DNA from: Thermosipho sp. (in: thermotogales)
GTDB taxonomy: Bacteria; Thermotogota; Thermotogae; Thermotogales; Fervidobacteriaceae
DNA: 64,000 nucleotides
NCBI GenBank assembly: GCA_017656335.1
Contig: JACDOA010000003.1
Location: 1-64,000, forward strand
Reading direction: 5' to 3'
Part shown: positions 10,795 to 34,933 of the stretch, piece after piece
Layout: every line of letters starts with the position of its first letter
How positions within the stretch are numbered: position 1 is the first letter of the stretch
Notes under the pieces: generated by a model
What the model was told of the DNA's origin: nothing
What the model saw: only the letters and a program-made list of their open reading frames with translations
Databases searched by the model: none
Position numbers and translations under genes: made by a program

Positions 10795-11806
10795 ATATTT
10801 AGCTTTGAAAATTATGGAAAGTGGAGAAGTTCCACTTTTGGTTGGACATTTCGGGGTTGGAAAAACTGATTTAGTGCGTGAAATAGCTGAAGAAACAAAT
10901 AGAAAACTTGTAATTCTCGTTTTATCTCAAATGGAACCAGGTGATTTAATTGGACTTCCTTCAAGAGAAAATAATAAAACAGTTTTCTTGGCACCAGATT
11001 GGTGGCCTGATGAAGAGAATTATATTATCTTTTTGGATGAAATAAATCGTTCTCATAGGAGCATTAGAAATGCAATTATGCAACTTTTAATTGATAAAAG
11101 AATTCATAATCATGTTTTACCAAAAAACACTTGGTTAGTTGCTTCTATGAATCCTCCTGATGAAGATTATGATCAAGTAGATTTAATAACTGACCCTGCT
11201 TTTCTTTCAAGATTTTTCATACTCGAAATTTCTCCTACTGTTGACGAATGGCTTCAATGGGCTAACAAGATGAATTTACCTAACGAAATTAAAAACTTTA
11301 TTATGAAAAATCCAGAATTTCTTCATCCTGGCTCAACTGTTTCATTGAAAGCAAATATAAGACCTAGCCCTAGAAGTTGGTACAAATTAGGAAATGTATT
11401 AAAAAACTTATCTGAGGAAGATAAAAAGAATTTTGGCTATCAATTAGCTTCTGGAATATTAGGCTCAGAAGCTGCTAAGATTTTTTCAGAAAGTGCTTTT
11501 TATGATATTCCTAATGCAAGAGACATTATTTTAAATGGACTCATTCCCAATGAAATGGAAATTCATGAAATAAATTCAATCATAATAAGAATAGTTGATT
11601 TCTTTTCAACCATTGACGATGAAGAGGCAAAAAAATTAATAAATGAAATAGATAAAATTTCACAAAATCTCTTAAAGTTATCAAAAGCTGTTCCTAAAGA
11701 TAGTTTTTTCAGTTTAGTTAGACTTTTAAGTGAACTTTCCAATGAAAAAGGTTATAAAGGAGAACTTTGTGATAAAATAATTGAAAAAATTAGCTTTATT
11801 GATTAA
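10775..11806 (+). CDS. MoxR-family AAA+ ATPase
   Basis: AAA+ chaperone-like ATPase of the MoxR group. Walker A is GHFGVGKTDL near residue 24, Walker B is IIFLDEINRS near 82, and sensor 1 is ASMNPPDEDY near 120. The LSRFF arginine-finger region lies near 143. The longest frame starts at TTG 10748, but TTG 10775 lies 8 bases after GGAGG (10762-10766) and is preferred, giving 343 residues. MoxR proteins usually act with a VWA-domain partner, but none is adjacent. The gene ends convergently with purB and overlaps it by 11 bases. Coupling with scpAB is visible; a functional link is inference. Confidence 0.85.
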   Translation: MTLQEAKYLALKIMESGEVPLLVGHFGVGKTDLVREIAEETNRKLVILVLSQMEPGDLIGLPSRENNKTVFLAPDWWPDEENYIIFLDEINRSHRSIRNAIMQLLIDKRIHNHVLPKNTWLVASMNPPDEDYDQVDLITDPAFLSRFFILEISPTVDEWLQWANKMNLPNEIKNFIMKNPEFLHPGSTVSLKANIRPSPRSWYKLGNVLKNLSEEDKKNFGYQLASGILGSEAAKIFSESAFYDIPNARDIILNGLIPNEMEIHEINSIIIRIVDFFSTIDDEEAKKLINEIDKISQNLLKLSKAVPKDSFFSLVRLLSELSNEKGYKGELCDKIIEKISFID

Positions 11807-13094
11807 TATTTTCTTCAAATCTTTCAAAAATCTTATCGATATTTCTCAAATAAAAAGAGGGACTAAACAATTCCTCTATTTCTTTTTTACTTAATAAATC
11901 TTTAAAATCTTTTTCTATTTTTTCCTTGAATGATAACTTTTTGGCCCAACATTCTAGTGCAATTTTTTGAATTCTTTGATATGCTTTTTCTCTTGAAAAA
12001 CCTTTGTCAATTAAGGCATGTAAAACCCTCTGAGAGTAAATTAATCCTTTAGTTAATTCTATATTTTTTTTAATGTTATCTTCAAAAATTACAAGTTTTT
12101 CAATTAAATATTGAGATTTCTTTACCATATAAAAAATTAACATAGTTATATCAGGAAACATAAACCTTTCAGTAGATGAATGTGAAATATCTCTTTCGTG
12201 CCACAAAGAAATATTTTCTAGAGCTACATTGATATAATTTCTAACAATTCGTGAAAGACCAGTTAATCGCTCACATAGAATTGGATTTTTCTTATGTGGC
12301 ATTGCGGATGAACCTCTTTGATTTTTCTTGAATGGTTCTTGGACTTCTAAAACTTCTGTTCTTTGTAAATGCCTTATTTCTATGGCCATTCTTTCTATTC
12401 CAGCGGAAATTAATCCAAAAACCTCTATTAAATGAGCATGATAATCCCTTGGAATTACTTGTGAAGACACTGGTGCTGGTTTTAGGGAAAGATACGAAAG
12501 TGCTAATTTTTCTATTTCAGGATCTATATTAGCATAATTTCCTACAGCACCAGATAATTTTCCAACCGAAATCTCTTCTCTTGCAATTTCCAATCTTTTT
12601 AAGTTCCTTTTAACTTCATCAAACCAGGAAAGAAATTTCAGACCAAAAGATGTTGGTTCAGCATGTACTCCATGAGTTCTACCTATAGTAGGAAGATACT
12701 TATATTTAACAGCTTTTTCAAACAATAAGCTGCCTAATACTTCTAATTCCTTTTCAATGAATTTTATAGAACGAAGAAGGGCTAACATATTGGCTGTATC
12801 AACTATGTCAGATGAAGTTAAACCATAATGGAAATATTTGGCTTCTTCTCCCATTTTAGAAGTAACAACCTTAATAAAAGCAATTACATCATGTTCCACT
12901 TCTTTTTCGACTTCTAAAAATTTGTCAATATTAAAATAAATATTTCTACTTATTTTCTCAAACGTTCCCTTTGGAACTCTATTAAATACTTCATATGCCT
13001 TAATAACAGCCAATTCAACTTCTAACCATCTCTTATATTGACTTTCAAGGTTCCATAAACTCTTTAATGGTTCAAGTGCATATCTTTCAACCAC
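11796..13094 (-). CDS. purB: Adenylosuccinate lyase
   Basis: Catalyses two fumarate-releasing steps of purine synthesis: SAICAR to AICAR, and adenylosuccinate to AMP. The fumarase-superfamily signature GSSAMPHKKNPI lies near residue 262, with GRTHGVHAEPTSFG near 135-148 carrying a catalytic His. The longest frame starts at TTG 13112 inside guaA, but GTG 13094 has GGGAG at a 7-base spacing and gives the usual N-terminus MVERYALEPL. The length is then 432 residues. It is the last gene of the FAD dehydrogenase-purA-guaA-purB operon, 4 bases after guaA. Confidence 0.95.
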   Translation of the reverse strand: MVERYALEPLKSLWNLESQYKRWLEVELAVIKAYEVFNRVPKGTFEKISRNIYFNIDKFLEVEKEVEHDVIAFIKVVTSKMGEEAKYFHYGLTSSDIVDTANMLALLRSIKFIEKELEVLGSLLFEKAVKYKYLPTIGRTHGVHAEPTSFGLKFLSWFDEVKRNLKRLEIAREEISVGKLSGAVGNYANIDPEIEKLALSYLSLKPAPVSSQVIPRDYHAHLIEVFGLISAGIERMAIEIRHLQRTEVLEVQEPFKKNQRGSSAMPHKKNPILCERLTGLSRIVRNYINVALENISLWHERDISHSSTERFMFPDITMLIFYMVKKSQYLIEKLVIFEDNIKKNIELTKGLIYSQRVLHALIDKGFSREKAYQRIQKIALECWAKKLSFKEKIEKDFKDLLSKKEIEELFSPSFYLRNIDKIFERFEENINQ

Positions 13095-13098
13095 AAAA

Positions 13099-14652
13099 TC
13101 ACTCCCATTCAATAGTTGCAGGAGGTTTTGAAGTTATATCAAAAACAACTCTATTAATTCCTTCAACTTCATTTACAATTCTTTTTGCAACATTATTTAA
13201 AAATTCATATGGCAATTTTGACCAATCTGCTGTCATGCCGTCCAGACTATTTACAGCACGAAGTGCAATTACGTTTTCGTATGTTCTATAGTCTCCTTTA
13301 ACTCCAACACTTTTAATAGGAAGTAAAACTGCAAAGGCTTGCCAAGTTGCATCATATAAATTATTCTTTTTCAACTCATCAATAAATATAAAATCTGCTT
13401 TTTGTAATTTTTGAATTGATTCTTTCGTAACCTCTCCAATTATCCTCACTGCTAAACCTGGTCCAGGGAAAGGATGCCTGTTTAAAATTTTATTTGGTAC
13501 ACCTAAAATTTCTCCTATCTTTCTGACCTCATCTTTGAAAAGATATCTGAAAGGTTCTATAATCTTAAAAGGTAAATTATCAGGTAATCCACCTACATTG
13601 TGATGAGTTTTAATCTTTGAAGCATCTTTTCTTTCTTTTGTTTTACTTTCAATAACATCCGGATACAAAGTTCCTTGTGCAAGAAATTCTATATTTCCAT
13701 ACTTCTTCATTAAATTCTTTGCTGCTTTTTCAAAAATTTCTATAAAAATCCTACCTATAATTCTTCTTTTATCCTCAGGATCTTCAATACCTTTTAGAGC
13801 ATTTAAAAATCTTTCTGATGCTTCAATAATCTCTATTTTTACCTTCAATTCTTTAAAATTATTTATCACTTCTTCCTTTTCATTTAATCTTAGAAGACCT
13901 GTATCAACAAAAATAGGAATAAGATTATCATCAATAGCTTTATTTAACAAAATTGCCAGAACCGAAGAATCTACCCCTCCAGACAATCCTAATATAACTT
14001 TCTTATTTCCAACAATTTTTCTTATTTCTTTAATCTTTTTTTCAACAAAATTATCCATTTTCCAATTCTTTTCTAATTTGGCAATCTTCTCAAGGAAATT
14101 AACTAAAATTTCTTTTCCATACTCACTATGAGATACCTCAGGATGAAATTGAAGACCATATATGCTACCTTCATAATTTCTTATTGCAGAATAAGGAGAA
14201 TTTTCACTTTCTCCGATAACAACAAAACCTTCTGGAAGTTGTTCAACTCTATCCGAATGACTCATCCATACTTTTGCTTTTTTTGGAATTCCCTCAAATA
14301 ATGGATCTTCTCTAATTACACTAAATTTTGAAGAACCAAATTCTCTTTTCAAAGATTTTTCCACTCTTCCTCCAAATTTTTTCACTAATGCTTGTAATCC
14401 ATAACATATTCCCAAAATAGGAATATTTAAATCAAAAACAAAATCTTGTAAATAAGGAGCATCATTTTCAAATACACTTGAAGGACCACCAGACAAAATT
14501 ATTGCACCTGGATTTAGCTCGATAATTTCTTGTTCAGAGGAATCCCATGGTAAAAGTTCTGCATAAAAACCGGCCTCTCTGATTCTTCTAACTATTAATT
14601 GTGTATATTGAGATCCGAAATCCAGCACAATAACAGTTCGATTTGAATTCAT
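13099..14652 (-). CDS. guaA: GMP synthase (glutamine-hydrolysing)
   Basis: Converts XMP to GMP with ATP and glutamine. The class I glutamine amidotransferase domain (about residues 7-190) carries the nucleophile Cys in GICYGLQAL and the His-Glu pair in FHPEVSH. The ATP pyrophosphatase domain has the P-loop GLSGGVDSSV near 223, and the C-terminal dimerisation domain ends KPPATIEWE. The longest frame begins at 14700 inside purA. ATG 14652 has GAGGTGAG 7 bases upstream and gives the normal N-terminus before VLDFGSQYT, for 517 residues. Placed between purA and purB, so AMP- and GMP-branch enzymes share one transcript. guaB is not in the window. Confidence 0.96.
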   Translation of the reverse strand: MNSNRTVIVLDFGSQYTQLIVRRIREAGFYAELLPWDSSEQEIIELNPGAIILSGGPSSVFENDAPYLQDFVFDLNIPILGICYGLQALVKKFGGRVEKSLKREFGSSKFSVIREDPLFEGIPKKAKVWMSHSDRVEQLPEGFVVIGESENSPYSAIRNYEGSIYGLQFHPEVSHSEYGKEILVNFLEKIAKLEKNWKMDNFVEKKIKEIRKIVGNKKVILGLSGGVDSSVLAILLNKAIDDNLIPIFVDTGLLRLNEKEEVINNFKELKVKIEIIEASERFLNALKGIEDPEDKRRIIGRIFIEIFEKAAKNLMKKYGNIEFLAQGTLYPDVIESKTKERKDASKIKTHHNVGGLPDNLPFKIIEPFRYLFKDEVRKIGEILGVPNKILNRHPFPGPGLAVRIIGEVTKESIQKLQKADFIFIDELKKNNLYDATWQAFAVLLPIKSVGVKGDYRTYENVIALRAVNSLDGMTADWSKLPYEFLNNVAKRIVNEVEGINRVVFDITSKPPATIEWE

Positions 14653-14665
14653 TAATTGACTCACC

Positions 14666-15862
14666 TCACAACATTTTGATTTGATCAACTCTTGGTCCAA
14701 ACGAAAATGCTTTGATTTTTATTCCAGTAAATTCTTCTATAAAACCAATATATTTTTTAAAGGAAATATCGTTTATATCATTCCATCCATCTAAATACTC
14801 ATAAATGGGGACTGCATTTTTTATATCATCTATATCTAAAATATTATCAACAAATTTTCCATTTATTCTATACCCAATACATACTGGTACTTTTTCTAAC
14901 CCACTAAGTATATCTCCTTTCGTTAATATCATTTCCTGAACTCCAGAAACAGTTGTTGCATATTTTAATAAAACTAAATCTAACCATCCTACTCTCCTTG
15001 GCCTGCCAGTAGTTGCACCATACTCATTTCCTTTTTTTCTCAATATTTCTGCTTCTTTGCCAGAAAGTTCGGTAGGAAAAGGCCCATTTCCAACTCTAGT
15101 TAAGTAAGCCTTAAAAACACCCGTAAAATTATCTAATTTTACCGGAAAACCAACTCCACTTTGCACACCTGTAGTACTGCAATTTGAGCCAGTAACATAC
15201 GGATATGTACCCATATCCAAATCTAGTAAAACCCCTTGAGTTCCTTCAAATAATACCTTTTTCAATTTAATTTCATTTATAATCTCCAATTGGCTTATTA
15301 TATAGGTTCTAAGATTTTGATAATGTTCATAAAGATTTTCAAAATCAAATACTATTTCATATATTTTATCATAAATTACTGAGATCTCATTAATCTTCAT
15401 TCTTAGATTTTCTTCATTTTCAAAATCTTTTAATCTGAAACCTATTCTATTTATTTTATCTGCATAAGCTGGACCAATTCCTCTTTTTGTTGTTCCTATC
15501 TTATTTAATTTGTCAAATTTTTCATCTAGTTTTTTGTGTATAGGTAAAACCACATGAGCTAAATTTGAAATTTTAATTTGTGGAAAATTATCCACTTTTT
15601 TTCTAAGATTTTTAATTTCTTCACATAAAATTTCCAAATCAACAACCACACCATTTGAAATAAGCAACTCTATTGTTTTATTTTTATAAAACGACGGTAA
15701 AAGATGATTTACAATTTTTGTTCCATCATTATATTCAATTGTGTGACCTGCATTACTCCCTCCACTATATCTAACTACACTATCGTAAAACCTTGAAAAA
15801 TAAGCAACAACTTTTCCTTTTCCCTCGTCTCCCCATTGAAGACCAACAATTACCGTTTTCAT
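14666..15862 (-). CDS. purA: Adenylosuccinate synthetase
   Basis: GTP-dependent condensation of IMP and aspartate, the first step from IMP to AMP. The N-terminal phosphate loop is QWGDEGKGK (residues 9-17), SGGSNAGHTI follows near 34-43, and the TTKRGIGPAYADK segment near 123 is the IMP-binding motif. TGRPRRVGWLDLV near 284 is also conserved. The length of 398 is slightly short but within range, with small loop deletions. The ATG has TAGGAGGG upstream. 16 bases separate it from the preceding FAD dehydrogenase, so the two are cotranscribed. Confidence 0.95.
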   Translation of the reverse strand: MKTVIVGLQWGDEGKGKVVAYFSRFYDSVVRYSGGSNAGHTIEYNDGTKIVNHLLPSFYKNKTIELLISNGVVVDLEILCEEIKNLRKKVDNFPQIKISNLAHVVLPIHKKLDEKFDKLNKIGTTKRGIGPAYADKINRIGFRLKDFENEENLRMKINEISVIYDKIYEIVFDFENLYEHYQNLRTYIISQLEIINEIKLKKVLFEGTQGVLLDLDMGTYPYVTGSNCSTTGVQSGVGFPVKLDNFTGVFKAYLTRVGNGPFPTELSGKEAEILRKKGNEYGATTGRPRRVGWLDLVLLKYATTVSGVQEMILTKGDILSGLEKVPVCIGYRINGKFVDNILDIDDIKNAVPIYEYLDGWNDINDISFKKYIGFIEEFTGIKIKAFSFGPRVDQIKML

Positions 15863-15878
15863 AAATTCCCTCCTAAAA

Positions 15879-17153
15879 TTATTTTAACTCACGTTTTAAT
15901 TTCATATATTCTAATAATCCATGTGCTGTAGCGTGCACTATACTTCTGGTAAAACCTGAACAATCACCTATAAATTTTAAATTTGGAACTAAATCATTAT
16001 TCATTTTCTTGCTGTAAAATTTAACTTCTATTCCGTACATTAAATGAGAATAATTAGAAATACCTGGAATTACCATTTCAAGTTGCTCTAAAAATTCCGT
16101 TATTGCTTTTACCGTTTTATGAGGCAAAACCAAATTTAGATCACCTAAAATATATTCATTTGAATTTAATGTTGGAAAAACATTCCATAATCTTTTGGTT
16201 CTTTTACCCATTTTAAAATCTCCATATGTTTGCAAAATAACCTTTCTACCACCTGCAAGAATGTTAGCTAAACGGGCAATGTATTCTCCATAACCATTTG
16301 GATCATTGAAAGGTTTTGTAAAATTGTGCGTAACCAAAATTGCAAAATTTGTATTTTTAGATTTTTTACTTTGAAAAGAATGTCCATTTACAGTTACAAA
16401 ACTTGGATATTTTTCGGTTACAACATAACCAGATGGATTATTACAAAAAGTTCTTACTAAAAGTCCGTTTGAAGCTTGGTATTTTATTTTAAATTCGTAC
16501 AGCATGTCATTTAATTTTTGAACTACGAAGTTGGGCAATTCATATCTTATCCCCAAATCAACTATATTATTTCTTACCACAAGTTCTGGATATTTTGTGC
16601 TTATTAAATCAACTAACTTTAAACCACTTCTCCCAACAGCAATGTATACTCTATCAAATTCTTCTGTATATTCCATTCCTTCCTTTATATACTTGATTTT
16701 TACAATATTTTTTTCTAGTCCCACATCTACCACTCGCGCCCCAAAAACAAATCTTATTCCTTTCTGTAAAAATGTTTCATAAATACTTTGCAAAAAAATC
16801 TTCAATTTTTCGGTTCCCAAATGATAAAATTTTGCTTCAACAAGCTTAAAACCATATCTGTGAAAAGCTTTTTTTAATTCCAAACTATTTTCGTGATTTC
16901 CCATTTCAGGAATAGTGTCAGCAACCTTGCAATAAAAATTTATTATTTCTCTTTGTAGATCAAGATTTAAAAGAATTTCTTCTAAATCTCCACCCATTTC
17001 ACTCGAAACAAACAATTTTCCATCTGCCCTTATTCCACTTATTGATGAAGAAAATACATCTTTATTTGCCTCAAATACGGTTATATTCTCATTTTCTACT
17101 TCCTTCAAAAACCCTACGCTAGCAGCTCCAAACCCAATAACAGCTATTTTCAT
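15879..17153 (-). CDS. FAD-dependent dehydrogenase, COG2509-like, uncharacterised
   Basis: An uncharacterised flavoprotein dehydrogenase of the COG2509 type. The N-terminal dinucleotide-binding motif is GFGAASVGF (residues 7-15), ending in Glu-33 of TVFEA as expected for FAD. A second glycine motif, YIAVGRSGLKLVDLI, lies near 165-180. LVRTFCNNPSGYVV near 230 is a family motif, and GDCSGFTRSIVHATAHGLL near 390 is the C-terminal FAD-binding motif. The ATG follows AGCAGGAGG. It is the first large gene after the putative attenuator and the promoter-proximal gene of a purine operon, which suggests, but does not prove, a role in nucleotide or redox metabolism. Confidence 0.85.
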   Translation of the reverse strand: MKIAVIGFGAASVGFLKEVENENITVFEANKDVFSSSISGIRADGKLFVSSEMGGDLEEILLNLDLQREIINFYCKVADTIPEMGNHENSLELKKAFHRYGFKLVEAKFYHLGTEKLKIFLQSIYETFLQKGIRFVFGARVVDVGLEKNIVKIKYIKEGMEYTEEFDRVYIAVGRSGLKLVDLISTKYPELVVRNNIVDLGIRYELPNFVVQKLNDMLYEFKIKYQASNGLLVRTFCNNPSGYVVTEKYPSFVTVNGHSFQSKKSKNTNFAILVTHNFTKPFNDPNGYGEYIARLANILAGGRKVILQTYGDFKMGKRTKRLWNVFPTLNSNEYILGDLNLVLPHKTVKAITEFLEQLEMVIPGISNYSHLMYGIEVKFYSKKMNNDLVPNLKFIGDCSGFTRSIVHATAHGLLEYMKLKRELK

Positions 17154-17177
17154 ATTTTCTCCTCCTGCTTTTTAGTC

Positions 17178-17215
17178 AATAAAAATAAAAAGAGAGAAGC
17201 CTAGACTTCTCTCTT
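17178..17215 (-). terminator. Intrinsic terminator, probable attenuator
   Basis: On the minus strand a 10-bp stem (AAGAGAGAAG, 17215-17206, with its complement at 17199-17190) closes a 6-base loop and is followed by TTTTATTTTT. It lies between the leader ORF and the FAD dehydrogenase. The ORF's TAG stop (17203-17201) falls in the loop. A terminator between a promoter and its only downstream genes is the hallmark of attenuation. The next ribosome binding site starts about 10 bases after the U-tract. Confidence 0.8.
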
Positions 17216-17296
17216 AGTGTAATAATCCCTTCTTTCTTTTAATAGAAAGGAAAACCAAAAATCTATAACTTTTATATGATAACATCTGAAATTCAT
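17201..17296 (-). CDS. 31-codon putative leader peptide
   Basis: A short ORF begins at ATG 17296, 7 bases after GGGGG, and ends with TAG inside the loop of the downstream terminator. The peptide starts MNFRCYHIKVIDFWFSF and then LLKERRDYYTKREV. It is rich in Phe (4), Tyr (3) and basic residues and has one Trp and one Cys. Translation would control whether upstream RNA segments pair with the terminator's 3' arm, so I read it as a leader peptide of a translation-dependent attenuator. It could instead be a small independent protein or a chance ORF in a structured leader. I do not recognise the sequence. Confidence 0.55.
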   Translation of the reverse strand: MNFRCYHIKVIDFWFSFLLKERRDYYTKREV

Positions 17297-17323
17297 ATCA
17301 CATCCCCCTTTTAACACAAACAT

Positions 17324-17352
17324 ATTTTATAATTAAGTTTAAAAATTGTCAA
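17324..17352 (-). promoter_or_regulatory. Promoter of leader and FAD-purA-guaA-purB operon
   Basis: On the minus strand a perfect TTGACA (17352-17347) is followed after 17 bases by TAAAAT (17329-17324). Transcription should start near 17317, about 20 bases before the leader ORF. This is the best-formed promoter I saw in the window. Confidence 0.75.
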
Positions 17353-17360
17353 ATTACAAT

Positions 17361-17399
17361 AAAAAAACAAGGCTCTAGAATTCCAACTAGAGCCTTGTT
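17361..17399 (-). terminator. Terminator of the mreB-to-EF-G operon
   Basis: Here a 13-bp perfect stem (AACAAGGCTCTAG and its complement) encloses an 8-base loop and is followed by seven or more T on the minus strand. It lies 22 bases after the stop of the EF-G-like gene and isolates it from the leader promoter. Confidence 0.88.
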
Positions 17400-17420
17400 T
17401 TATGCGTTTTAATTTTATTT

Positions 17421-19481
17421 TCACTCTTTTTCTTCTAATTCACGTTTTCTTTCTTGAATGATCTTTTCTTGAACATTATTTGGAACGATATCGTATCTCA
17501 AGAATTTCATAGTGAAGTATCCTCTACCACTTGTAATTGATGACAACCTTCCGGAAAAATCAAGCATCTCAGCAAGTGGAACTTCAGCCATAACCTTTGT
17601 AGTTCCTTTACCTGCAGGTTCCATTCCTAGTGGTCTACCTCTTCTTGAACTAATTTCTCCCATTACATCTCCTGCATTATCATCAGGGACAAATACCTCA
17701 ACTTCCATAATTGGTTCAAGCAAAACAGGTCTTGCCTGCTCAAAAGCTTTCCTAAATGCCTGAATCGCAGCAATTTGGAATGAAATATCAGATGAATCAA
17801 CTTCGTGATAAGAACCATCAAATAATGTTACTTTAACATCAACAACTGGAAATCCTGCAAGTGAACCTTTTTTCATAGCTTCTCGTATTCCTTTTTCTAC
17901 AGATGGAATAAAGTTTCTAGGAATGACTCCTCCAACAATCTTATCTACAAATTCAAATCCTTTTCCTCTCTCTACAGGTTCAATTTCAATTTTAACGTGT
18001 CCATACTGACCATGTCCACCAGTCTGTTTTTTATGTTTATGCTCTCCAGTTGCTTTAGAAGTGATAGTTTCTCTATAAGCAATTTTTGGTTTTCCAACTT
18101 CAACATCAACTCCAAAAATATTTTTCAATTTTTCTACCATAGCTTCAAGATGAATACTACCCACTCCAGAAATTACAGTTTCAGCAGTTTCAGGATCAAA
18201 TTCCCATCGGAATGTTGGATCAGAATCAGCCAATCTTGCAAGGCCATTACTAATTTTATCTATATCTGATTTTGATTTTGGAGTTATACTTTTAGAAATC
18301 ATTGGTTCTGGAAAATTAGGAGGAACTACTTTTAATTTTCTATCTTTATGAGTCATAGTATCTCCTACTGAACTTTCTTTAAGCTTAGGAACCACAATAA
18401 TATCACCACATGATGCTTCCGAAACTTCATATGTTTCCTTTAAATTTGCAAAATAGATATGACCTATTTTTTCGGAACTTCCTTTGTTAACATTTATCAA
18501 AGTATCTCCAGCGGATACTTTTCCACTAATTATCTTAATAAAACTAAGTTTTCCAACAAATTGGTCTACAATAGCTTTAAACGTGTATCCTACTACGGGT
18601 TCATCTTCTACTGGATTTACTTCTACTTCATCCCCTGATTCAAGTACTGCTTTGTATGGAACTCCTTCAGAAGGATTTACACCTAATGTTCTAACGGTCT
18701 TTAAGAAAAGATCTACACCAATATTTTTTTCAGCAGAACCACAAAAAATAGGAACAATTTCTCCAGATTTATAACCAATTTTTAATGTTTTTAAAAGTTC
18801 TTCTGCAGAAATTTCTTCATCTGCAAAATATCTCTCCATCAATTCATCATCAAGGGAAACAATATCTTCAATCATTGAAGATTTCAATTCTTCTACTTTT
18901 GACTTTAACTCCTCAGGTATATCTGTTTGTTTTACTTTACCATTTTCATATAGAAAAGCTTTTCCTGAAAATACATCAACAATTCCTTTAAAGTTTTCAG
19001 CTTCACCAATTGGATAGAAAATGGGCACAAATTTTCTTTCAAACCTTTCTTTTAAACTCTCAAGAGTGTTATCAAAACTTGCTCTTTCTTTGTCCATTTG
19101 ATTAACAAAAACCATAATTGGTTTTTTCATTTCTTCTGCCATTGCCCACGTTCTCTCAGTTTGAATTTCAACACCAGCAGTTGCATTAACTATTGAAACG
19201 ACATTCTCTGTAACAAACAAAGCATTTATAACTTCTCCAACAAAATCACTAAAACCAGGAGTATCAATCACAGTATATTGAATACCATCAAAATCAAAAG
19301 TTGCAACGTGAGAAGATATACTTGAACCTTTTTCACCTTCAATAGGGTCGTAATCAACATCTTTGTTTCCGATTTTATCAAGTTTTCCCGCATTAAAAAG
19401 CATTGCGGAAAGCATGTAACTTTTACCAGAACCGTTATGCCCAATTAAAGAAAGAGTTCTTTTTTTGTCCACAGTTGACAT
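17421..19481 (-). CDS. Elongation factor G-like GTPase (paralog)
   Basis: A full-length (686-residue) translational GTPase of the EF-G-like group. The P-loop is GHNGSGKS (residues 14-21), DTPGFSDFVGEV is near 73, and the G4 motif NQMDKE lies near 128-133. Domains II-V follow, including the domain IV segment HKHKKQTGGHGQYGHV near 478-493. Canonical EF-G has RGITI in switch I; here the equivalent region reads GEKGSSISS, so it is a paralog rather than the housekeeping fusA. The function may be ribosome recycling or rescue; this is inference. The ATG follows CGGAGGTGAGCTA. The gene ends at a strong terminator. Confidence 0.88.
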   Translation of the reverse strand: MSTVDKKRTLSLIGHNGSGKSYMLSAMLFNAGKLDKIGNKDVDYDPIEGEKGSSISSHVATFDFDGIQYTVIDTPGFSDFVGEVINALFVTENVVSIVNATAGVEIQTERTWAMAEEMKKPIMVFVNQMDKERASFDNTLESLKERFERKFVPIFYPIGEAENFKGIVDVFSGKAFLYENGKVKQTDIPEELKSKVEELKSSMIEDIVSLDDELMERYFADEEISAEELLKTLKIGYKSGEIVPIFCGSAEKNIGVDLFLKTVRTLGVNPSEGVPYKAVLESGDEVEVNPVEDEPVVGYTFKAIVDQFVGKLSFIKIISGKVSAGDTLINVNKGSSEKIGHIYFANLKETYEVSEASCGDIIVVPKLKESSVGDTMTHKDRKLKVVPPNFPEPMISKSITPKSKSDIDKISNGLARLADSDPTFRWEFDPETAETVISGVGSIHLEAMVEKLKNIFGVDVEVGKPKIAYRETITSKATGEHKHKKQTGGHGQYGHVKIEIEPVERGKGFEFVDKIVGGVIPRNFIPSVEKGIREAMKKGSLAGFPVVDVKVTLFDGSYHEVDSSDISFQIAAIQAFRKAFEQARPVLLEPIMEVEVFVPDDNAGDVMGEISSRRGRPLGMEPAGKGTTKVMAEVPLAEMLDFSGRLSSITSGRGYFTMKFLRYDIVPNNVQEKIIQERKRELEEKE

Positions 19482-34583: not shown

Positions 34584-34911
34584 GGAGTGGGGCATGCAAG
34601 CGCGGTTAGTCAAACTTAGACTAACCGAGGAAAGTCCGGACTCCATGGGCATGGTACCGGATAACATCCGGAGGGTAAAACCCTGGATAGGGCCATAGAA
34701 AAGAAAACCACCGAAAGGTAAGGGTGGAACGGTGAGGTAAGAGCTCACCAGACATGGAGTAATCCATGTGCTTGGTAACCCCTACCTGGAGCAAGGTCAA
34801 GCAGGGATAGGGTGGCTCCGCCCATATCCCGGGTAGACCGCTTGAGAAATTTGGTAACAAATTTCCTAGATAGATGCTTGCACAAACAGAATCCGGCTTA
34901 TGCCCCACTCC
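34584..34911 (+). ncRNA. rnpB: RNase P RNA (type A)
   Basis: Catalytic RNA that matures tRNA 5' ends. The terminal P1 helix pairs GGAGTGGGGCAT (34584-34595) with ATGCCCCACTCC (34900-34911). Inside it lie the universally conserved GAGGAAAGTCC (34628-34638) and, near the 3' end, ACAGAATCCGGCTTA (34885-34899), which form helix P4 and its neighbours. The base content is near half G+C (32 of 60 in 34621-34680), far above the AT-rich surroundings, as expected for a structural RNA of a thermophile. Short reading frames across it on the minus strand are chance. Confidence 0.97.
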
Positions 34912-34933
34912 AATTTTAAATAAAATTTTAGTG

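Follow-up and report, generated by a model that had tools for sequence, protein, structure and literature searches.

Transcription attenuation by means of a short leader ORF has been described for genes of amino-acid and pyrimidine pathways and of drug responses. In amino-acid attenuators, a stalled ribosome picks between alternative hairpins, and in the antibiotic-responsive bmrCD, vmlR and tlrB leaders of Bacillus subtilis, a low-GC host with predicted runaway transcription, programmed pausing lets ribosomes act. The terminator of amino-acid attenuators is located more than 20 bp past the leader ORF, and that of Escherichia coli pyrBI is placed inside the leader ORF and is blocked by a closely following ribosome (PMC4824070). 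In this pyrimidine leader (pyrL), RNA polymerase pauses at low UTP on a stretch of 49% U, by which the ribosome catches up (PMC10135430). Thermotogota have been placed, furthermore, among the phyla with predicted runaway, uncoupled transcription (PMC13323073).

Here, we describe a leader in a 64,000-nt stretch of Thermosipho DNA (the window). The locus resembles E. coli pyrBI in that an operon of a nucleotide pathway is preceded by a short leader ORF overlapping an intrinsic terminator, which ribosome occupancy could block, but it differs in that its genes are those of purine metabolism, its phylum is predicted to be uncoupled, and the leader has no strong bias to a single nucleotide. With the trp/his-type attenuators it shares a leader ORF, an upstream hairpin and a terminator ahead of the genes; unlike them, it has neither regulatory codons for an amino acid of the pathway nor a 2:3 antiterminator, and its ORF reaches the terminator. 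A short ORF combined with a terminator is also reminiscent of the bmrCD, vmlR and tlrB leaders, whereas the target here is central metabolism instead of resistance, and no conserved antiterminator partner is present. The finding holds up and is conserved, and the leader is best filed as an attenuator of pyrBI-like layout. In the open-licence literature, we found no leader-ORF attenuator reported on purA-guaA-purB or in Thermosipho and none characterised in Thermotogota, in agreement with a previous reading of the DNA from its letters alone (the sequence-only reading), which knew of none on this operon.

Leader and operon

The genus was represented by four genomes: namely, the window's own (G000), G001, G003 and a MAG (G002). 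The features of the locus are as follows.

17421-19481, minus strand: EF-G-like gene, upstream of the leader
17401-17364, minus strand: separate terminator, closing the EF-G-like gene
17324-17352, minus strand: promoter TTGACA-17-TAAAAT, at the homologous place in G001, G002 and G003
17304-17312, minus strand: leader ribosome binding site AAAAGGGGG; SD:anti-SD duplex of -12.0 kcal/mol; G-rich site at the same place in four of four genomes
17201-17296, minus strand: leader ORF of 31 codons, MNFRCYHIKVIDFWFSFLLKERRDYYTKREV; stop codon inside the terminator loop; SD-ATG start in three of four genomes; peptide unconserved
17228-17250, minus strand: possible upstream (pause) hairpin CCTTTCT...AGAAAGAAGG; CTTTC...GAAAG at the same place in four of four genomes
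17178-17215, minus strand: intrinsic terminator AAGAGAGAAG-TCTAGG-CTTCTCTCTT and T-rich tail; 11 bp, 100% paired in four genomes, two pairs with double-sided change
before the ATG at 17153, minus strand: ribosome site of the FAD-protein gene, AGGAGGAG
15879-17153, minus strand: FAD-dependent protein with PF21688 C-terminal domain, first gene of the operon; PDB relative 3nlc, VP0956
14666-15862, minus strand: purA, adenylosuccinate synthase (NF010355, E 6e-177)
13099-14652, minus strand: guaA, glutamine-hydrolysing GMP synthase, start set at an internal ATG (NF000848, E 5e-235)
11796-13112, minus strand: purB, adenylosuccinate lyase, last gene of the operon (TIGR00928, E 6e-140)

The promoter, the 31-codon ORF with its G-rich site, the terminator and the FAD-gene ribosome site were all recovered on the minus strand where the sequence-only reading had placed them, and the intergenic order on this strand is EF-G-like terminator, promoter, G-rich site, ORF, terminator and FAD-gene ribosome site. 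The promoter, with TTGACA at 17352 and TAAAAT ending at 17324, matches the consensus at 11 of 12 positions and ranks among the top two promoter matches within 11500-17600. No promoter match was found between the terminator (17215-17178) and the start of the FAD protein at 17153; transcription of the operon must therefore read through the terminator. The layout of an attenuator is thus present, i.e., an intrinsic terminator between the promoter and the first gene with no second promoter after it. The leader (17324-17154, minus strand) is also poor in C in all four genomes, with 5-8% as compared to 12% in genes.

purA, guaA and purB closely follow the FAD gene, and the operon ends at purB, the next gene being convergent. 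When the whole genomes of G000-G003 were searched, purF, purM and pyrB were not found above the cut-off; the matches to purF were short, sub-cut-off and of amidotransferase type. Sister genera of the family, in contrast, have purF and pyrB above the cut-off and matches to purM, some of which are below its cut-off. As judged from the gene content, the genus has apparently lost de novo synthesis of purines and pyrimidines, and its members are probably purine auxotrophs. Given that purF and purM are absent, the operon is one of purine interconversion (AMP and GMP from IMP) and not of de novo synthesis; the description of a purine operon in the sequence-only reading thus holds for purA-guaA-purB with a flavoenzyme but needs to be narrowed in this respect.

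The FAD protein stands at the head of the operon, beside the purine genes, in this genus; by sequence, the only relative with a solved structure was 3nlc (VP0956), which is uncharacterised. The closest relative of the FAD protein outside the genus (L004 in G050, of another family of the class) is 64% identical, and a promoter likewise precedes it, followed by a small ORF of 59 codons that looks winged-helix-like by eye and by a terminator; purA is not adjacent there.

Conservation of the terminator and the leader ORF

The gene order of EF-G-like gene, leader, FAD protein, purA and guaA is common to all four genomes of the genus, and purB was confirmed in G001 and G002, while the examined locus of G003 ends inside guaA. 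TTGACA, a TAAAAT-like box, the G-rich site and the terminator recur at matching spacing in all four. In relatives of the same family, the FAD gene is absent, and purA is preceded by other genes or by no such leader; indeed, a similar leader before purA was not seen in the inspected upstream sequences of sister genera. An attenuator-type leader before the flavoenzyme-purA-guaA-purB operon, as proposed in the sequence-only reading, is hence kept in the four genomes.

The terminator is the most conserved element of the leader. Its stem (17215-17190) has 11 bp and a loop of 4 nt, and the T-rich tail extends to about 17178. Two of the 11 pairs show double-sided changes, one from G-C to A-U and the other among C-G, U-A and U-G. 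No double-sided change appeared when the partner strand was slid by one to three columns; a shuffle control was not significant (61/500), with four sequences only. We also searched 61 genomes for the AAGAGAGAAG-loop-CTTCTCTCTT pattern, with the reversed pattern as the control, and obtained one match each in G000, G001 and G003, none in the rest and none with the reversed pattern; there is no second copy elsewhere in the window's genome. Only about 25 nt separate the terminator from the FAD gene. Taken as a whole, the terminator is probably a regulatory or limiting feature.

The upstream hairpin, while kept in place, is not more stable than its shuffled versions except in G001, and an unusual overall fold of the leader was not found (z -0.93 versus shuffles). 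A pyrimidine tract in the leader is able to pair with either of two purine tracts. A hairpin of strands 2 and 3 as an antiterminator is absent, since the two candidates for these strands are rich in purines and thus unable to pair with each other.

The leader ORF is much less conserved. In the window's genome, it starts with ATG at 17296 and its TAG ends at 17201. An ATG follows the G-rich site by 6-7 nt in G000, G001 and G003, and opens ORFs of 31, 22 and 38 codons, respectively, the peptides of which are MNFRCYHIKVIDFWFSFLLKERRDYYTKREV, MKKNRLLNLNSTLFLFLFERKI and MKYNKFFKVHKYKFFYVLSFRKRGFLQQERSLASLFLF. The ORF of G000 ends in the terminator loop, that of G001 ends 2-5 nt ahead of the stem, and that of G003 continues beyond the 3' arm. 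In G002, ATT occupies the homologous start and a run of seven A breaks the frame, leaving a stop after nine codons; a longer frame crosses the terminator but has no well-placed start. This break may be an assembly error in the MAG. When compared with the pyrBI layout, therefore, the ORF runs into or beyond the terminator in G000 and G003, stays within the reach of a ribosome in G001, and is broken in G002.

The ORF segment has diverged past useful alignment, while the FAD proteins are 74-85% identical to that of the window. Across the genomes of the genus, the leader peptide is not conserved and cannot be aligned beyond a short aromatic-to-basic stretch, a likeness due to the underlying pyrimidine and purine tracts. 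A conserved leader peptide was accordingly rejected, the likeness being only local, around the sequence of the hairpin and the stem. Nor was there a match in Pfam or NCBIfam, and a known leader-peptide family was rejected on this basis. Under shuffling of the segment, the openness of the ORF gave P = 0.09, 0.11, 0.58 and 0.08 in the individual genomes, with 8-11% of the shuffles open in each of G000, G001 and G003; the openness is mildly unusual and by itself weak evidence. The comparison with relatives that the sequence-only reading had proposed thus bore out the stem, with compensatory changes and in four of four genomes, but not the peptide.

The leader contains 36-43% A, 20-22% G and 32-35% T, and the corresponding averages of genes are 37, 18 and 32%. 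A leader-wide bias to purine nucleotides was thus not found in the four genomes of the genus, and membership of the pyrBI class, of which a strong bias to the sensed nucleotide is a feature, is not established for this reason. Purine richness is confined to the part that begins at the upstream hairpin and ends with the 5' arm of the stem; purines amount there to 65-73% in the four genomes versus 55% in genes, and the 5' arm is all purine.

Proposed control of the terminator

The leader is likely to be a transcription attenuator of the purine-interconversion operon. From the sequence, we infer that the terminator is functional and is gated by translation of the leader ORF. RNA polymerase would start about 100-115 nt upstream of the terminator, and transcripts would by default end near 17178. 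A ribosome would load on the G-rich site of the leader and translate the short ORF ending at the terminator; if it were close behind the polymerase, it would occupy the 5' arm of the stem and thereby prevent formation of the hairpin, so that the FAD-purA-guaA-purB genes would be transcribed. If the ribosome lagged, stalled or never loaded, transcription would stop. What would be decisive is then the position of the ribosome relative to the terminator, with the peptide sequence being irrelevant, as at E. coli pyrBI. We consider that this attenuator, gated by the position of the ribosome in a pyrBI-like layout, has an even chance of being correct in full; whether the leader ORF is translated and functionally relevant is about equally balanced, and so is the blocking of the terminator by a ribosome at the end of the ORF.

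In favour of the gating, all three intact ORFs end within reach of the terminator. Against it are the broken start in G002, the openness of P = 0.08-0.11 in the three good genomes, the predicted uncoupling in the phylum and a leader composition near that of genes, in contrast to the 49% U of pyrL. The claim that translation sets the outcome is weakened by the same ATT start and broken frame of G002, by the unconserved peptide and by an openness that is only mildly unusual. "Peptide-based" in the sequence-only reading is probably wrong: the ORFs of 22, 31 and 38 codons differ in sequence and yet all end at or across the terminator, from which it follows that any role of the ORF would lie in where the ribosome is located and not in the peptide.

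The prediction of uncoupling can be compared with the window's genome, where 41% of 185 gene-end terminators overlap the stop codon or begin within 12 nt of it, as expected where ribosomes rarely interfere with terminators. Ribosomes may thus seldom catch the polymerase in this organism, and because stop-overlapping terminators are common in the genome, the overlap alone is no evidence of gating by ribosomes.

The ORF might instead be incidental, and the terminator might be either a leaky stop limiting the operon or a terminator under non-translational control by a protein or another trans-acting factor. We regard this as a serious possibility but do not favour it. It would account for the unconserved peptide, the broken start of G002, the weak openness and the predicted uncoupling of the phylum, and also for the terminator itself being the most conserved element. 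An incidental ORF would not explain, nonetheless, why the G-rich site with an ATG 6-7 nt later is kept in three of four genomes amid a fast-changing stretch, and why all three ORFs that are intact extend to the terminator or across it.

As a special case of gating by ribosome position, low ATP or GTP might slow the polymerase where the sequence is A/G-rich, ahead of the terminator and inside it, letting the ribosome catch up and turning the operon on. A polymerase slowed under low purine nucleotides would be the most logical candidate signal, since AMP and GMP are the products of the operon, purF and purM are missing from the genus and the layout is that of pyrBI, and the purine content between the hairpin and the 5' arm would fit in with this. 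The composition of the whole leader is ordinary, nonetheless, U-rich stretches are also there, and the purine excess is in part the stem arm itself; we thus consider this purine counterpart of pyrBI rather unlikely. The predicted uncoupling could even sharpen the idea, in that transcription would terminate by default and the ribosome would arrive only if the polymerase had been slowed. If so, transcription would normally outrun translation, and the slowing itself would be the signal.

An attenuator of trp type, in which stalling at regulatory codons picks between alternative hairpins, is very unlikely. The leader ORF, the upstream hairpin and the pyrimidine tract pairing with either purine tract are elements of such a device, and codons for Phe are enriched (15 of 88 residues, P = 0.0002 before correction), but this enrichment is due to the pyrimidine tract. 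Asp and Gln, which PurA and GuaA use as their amino-acid substrates, are at the level of chance with two each of the 88 residues, and the ORF ends at the terminator instead of more than 20 bp before it. The alternative hairpin was rejected, as the purine-rich nature of both middle-strand candidates makes a classical 2:3 antiterminator impossible.

A metabolite-binding riboswitch would suit a leader that is about 150 nt long and carries a terminator ahead of biosynthetic genes, and the purine (guanine) riboswitch RF00167 would be the expected control of purine genes. It does not match this leader, however, and was found in 22 of the 61 genomes searched, all of them in other families of the class and none in this genus or its family. 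No match to the leader reached the gathering score in Rfam, and the hits of a lax search all stayed below the threshold and belonged to unrelated families; an RNA family covering the leader, which the sequence-only reading had named as grounds against its proposal, was thus not seen. An aptamer-like conserved core is absent between the ribosome site and the hairpin in the four genomes, and the fold, as mentioned above, is not unusual. A riboswitch or known RNA family was rejected, the lax matches being unrelated RNAs far below the threshold, and we regard this explanation as highly improbable. Equally improbable is that the ORF encodes an ordinary small protein and that the terminator belongs to it, the operon living on readthrough: the strong ribosome site and the frequent stop-overlapping terminators of the genome would allow it, but neither sequence nor length (22, 31 and 38 codons) is conserved, Pfam and NCBIfam give no match, and the next gene is only about 25 nt away.

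If translation gates the terminator, the locus would provide a clean test of ribosomes catching the polymerase despite the uncoupling predicted for the phylum, and also an example of AMP/GMP control without a leader riboswitch in bacteria that apparently have no de novo purine synthesis.

Leaders elsewhere in the genome

A genome-wide control covered 1.779 of 1.786 Mb of the window's genome, in which 59 terminators are located just before a gene without a gene end directly preceding. By inspection, most of the well-placed leader ORFs with a good ribosome site among the 59 reflected tRNA genes, a lysine riboswitch or small genes, and what remained was the window's leader and two leaders before ABC-transporter genes on contig C10. 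The architecture of the window's leader is rare in its own genome.

The two leaders on contig C10 (L160, 13050-13250 and 16530-16850, both minus strand) have the ORFs MRIRISKSRKLNIYLLGNLSGVKMLRK and MRKIRIFSETI, followed by terminators and then by ABC-transporter genes, and their GGGCAACC and CGGCAACC stretches can pair with their terminators. They look like ribosome-mediated attenuators of the drug type and are closer to the bmrCD/vmlR/tlrB class than the window's leader is. Among known RNAs, the lysine riboswitch (RF00168, 110 bits; L101, 11959-12134, plus strand) precedes a gene starting at 12172, which is probably asd, and the bacterial RNase P RNA of class A (RF00010) is encoded in the window at 34584-34915 on the plus strand.
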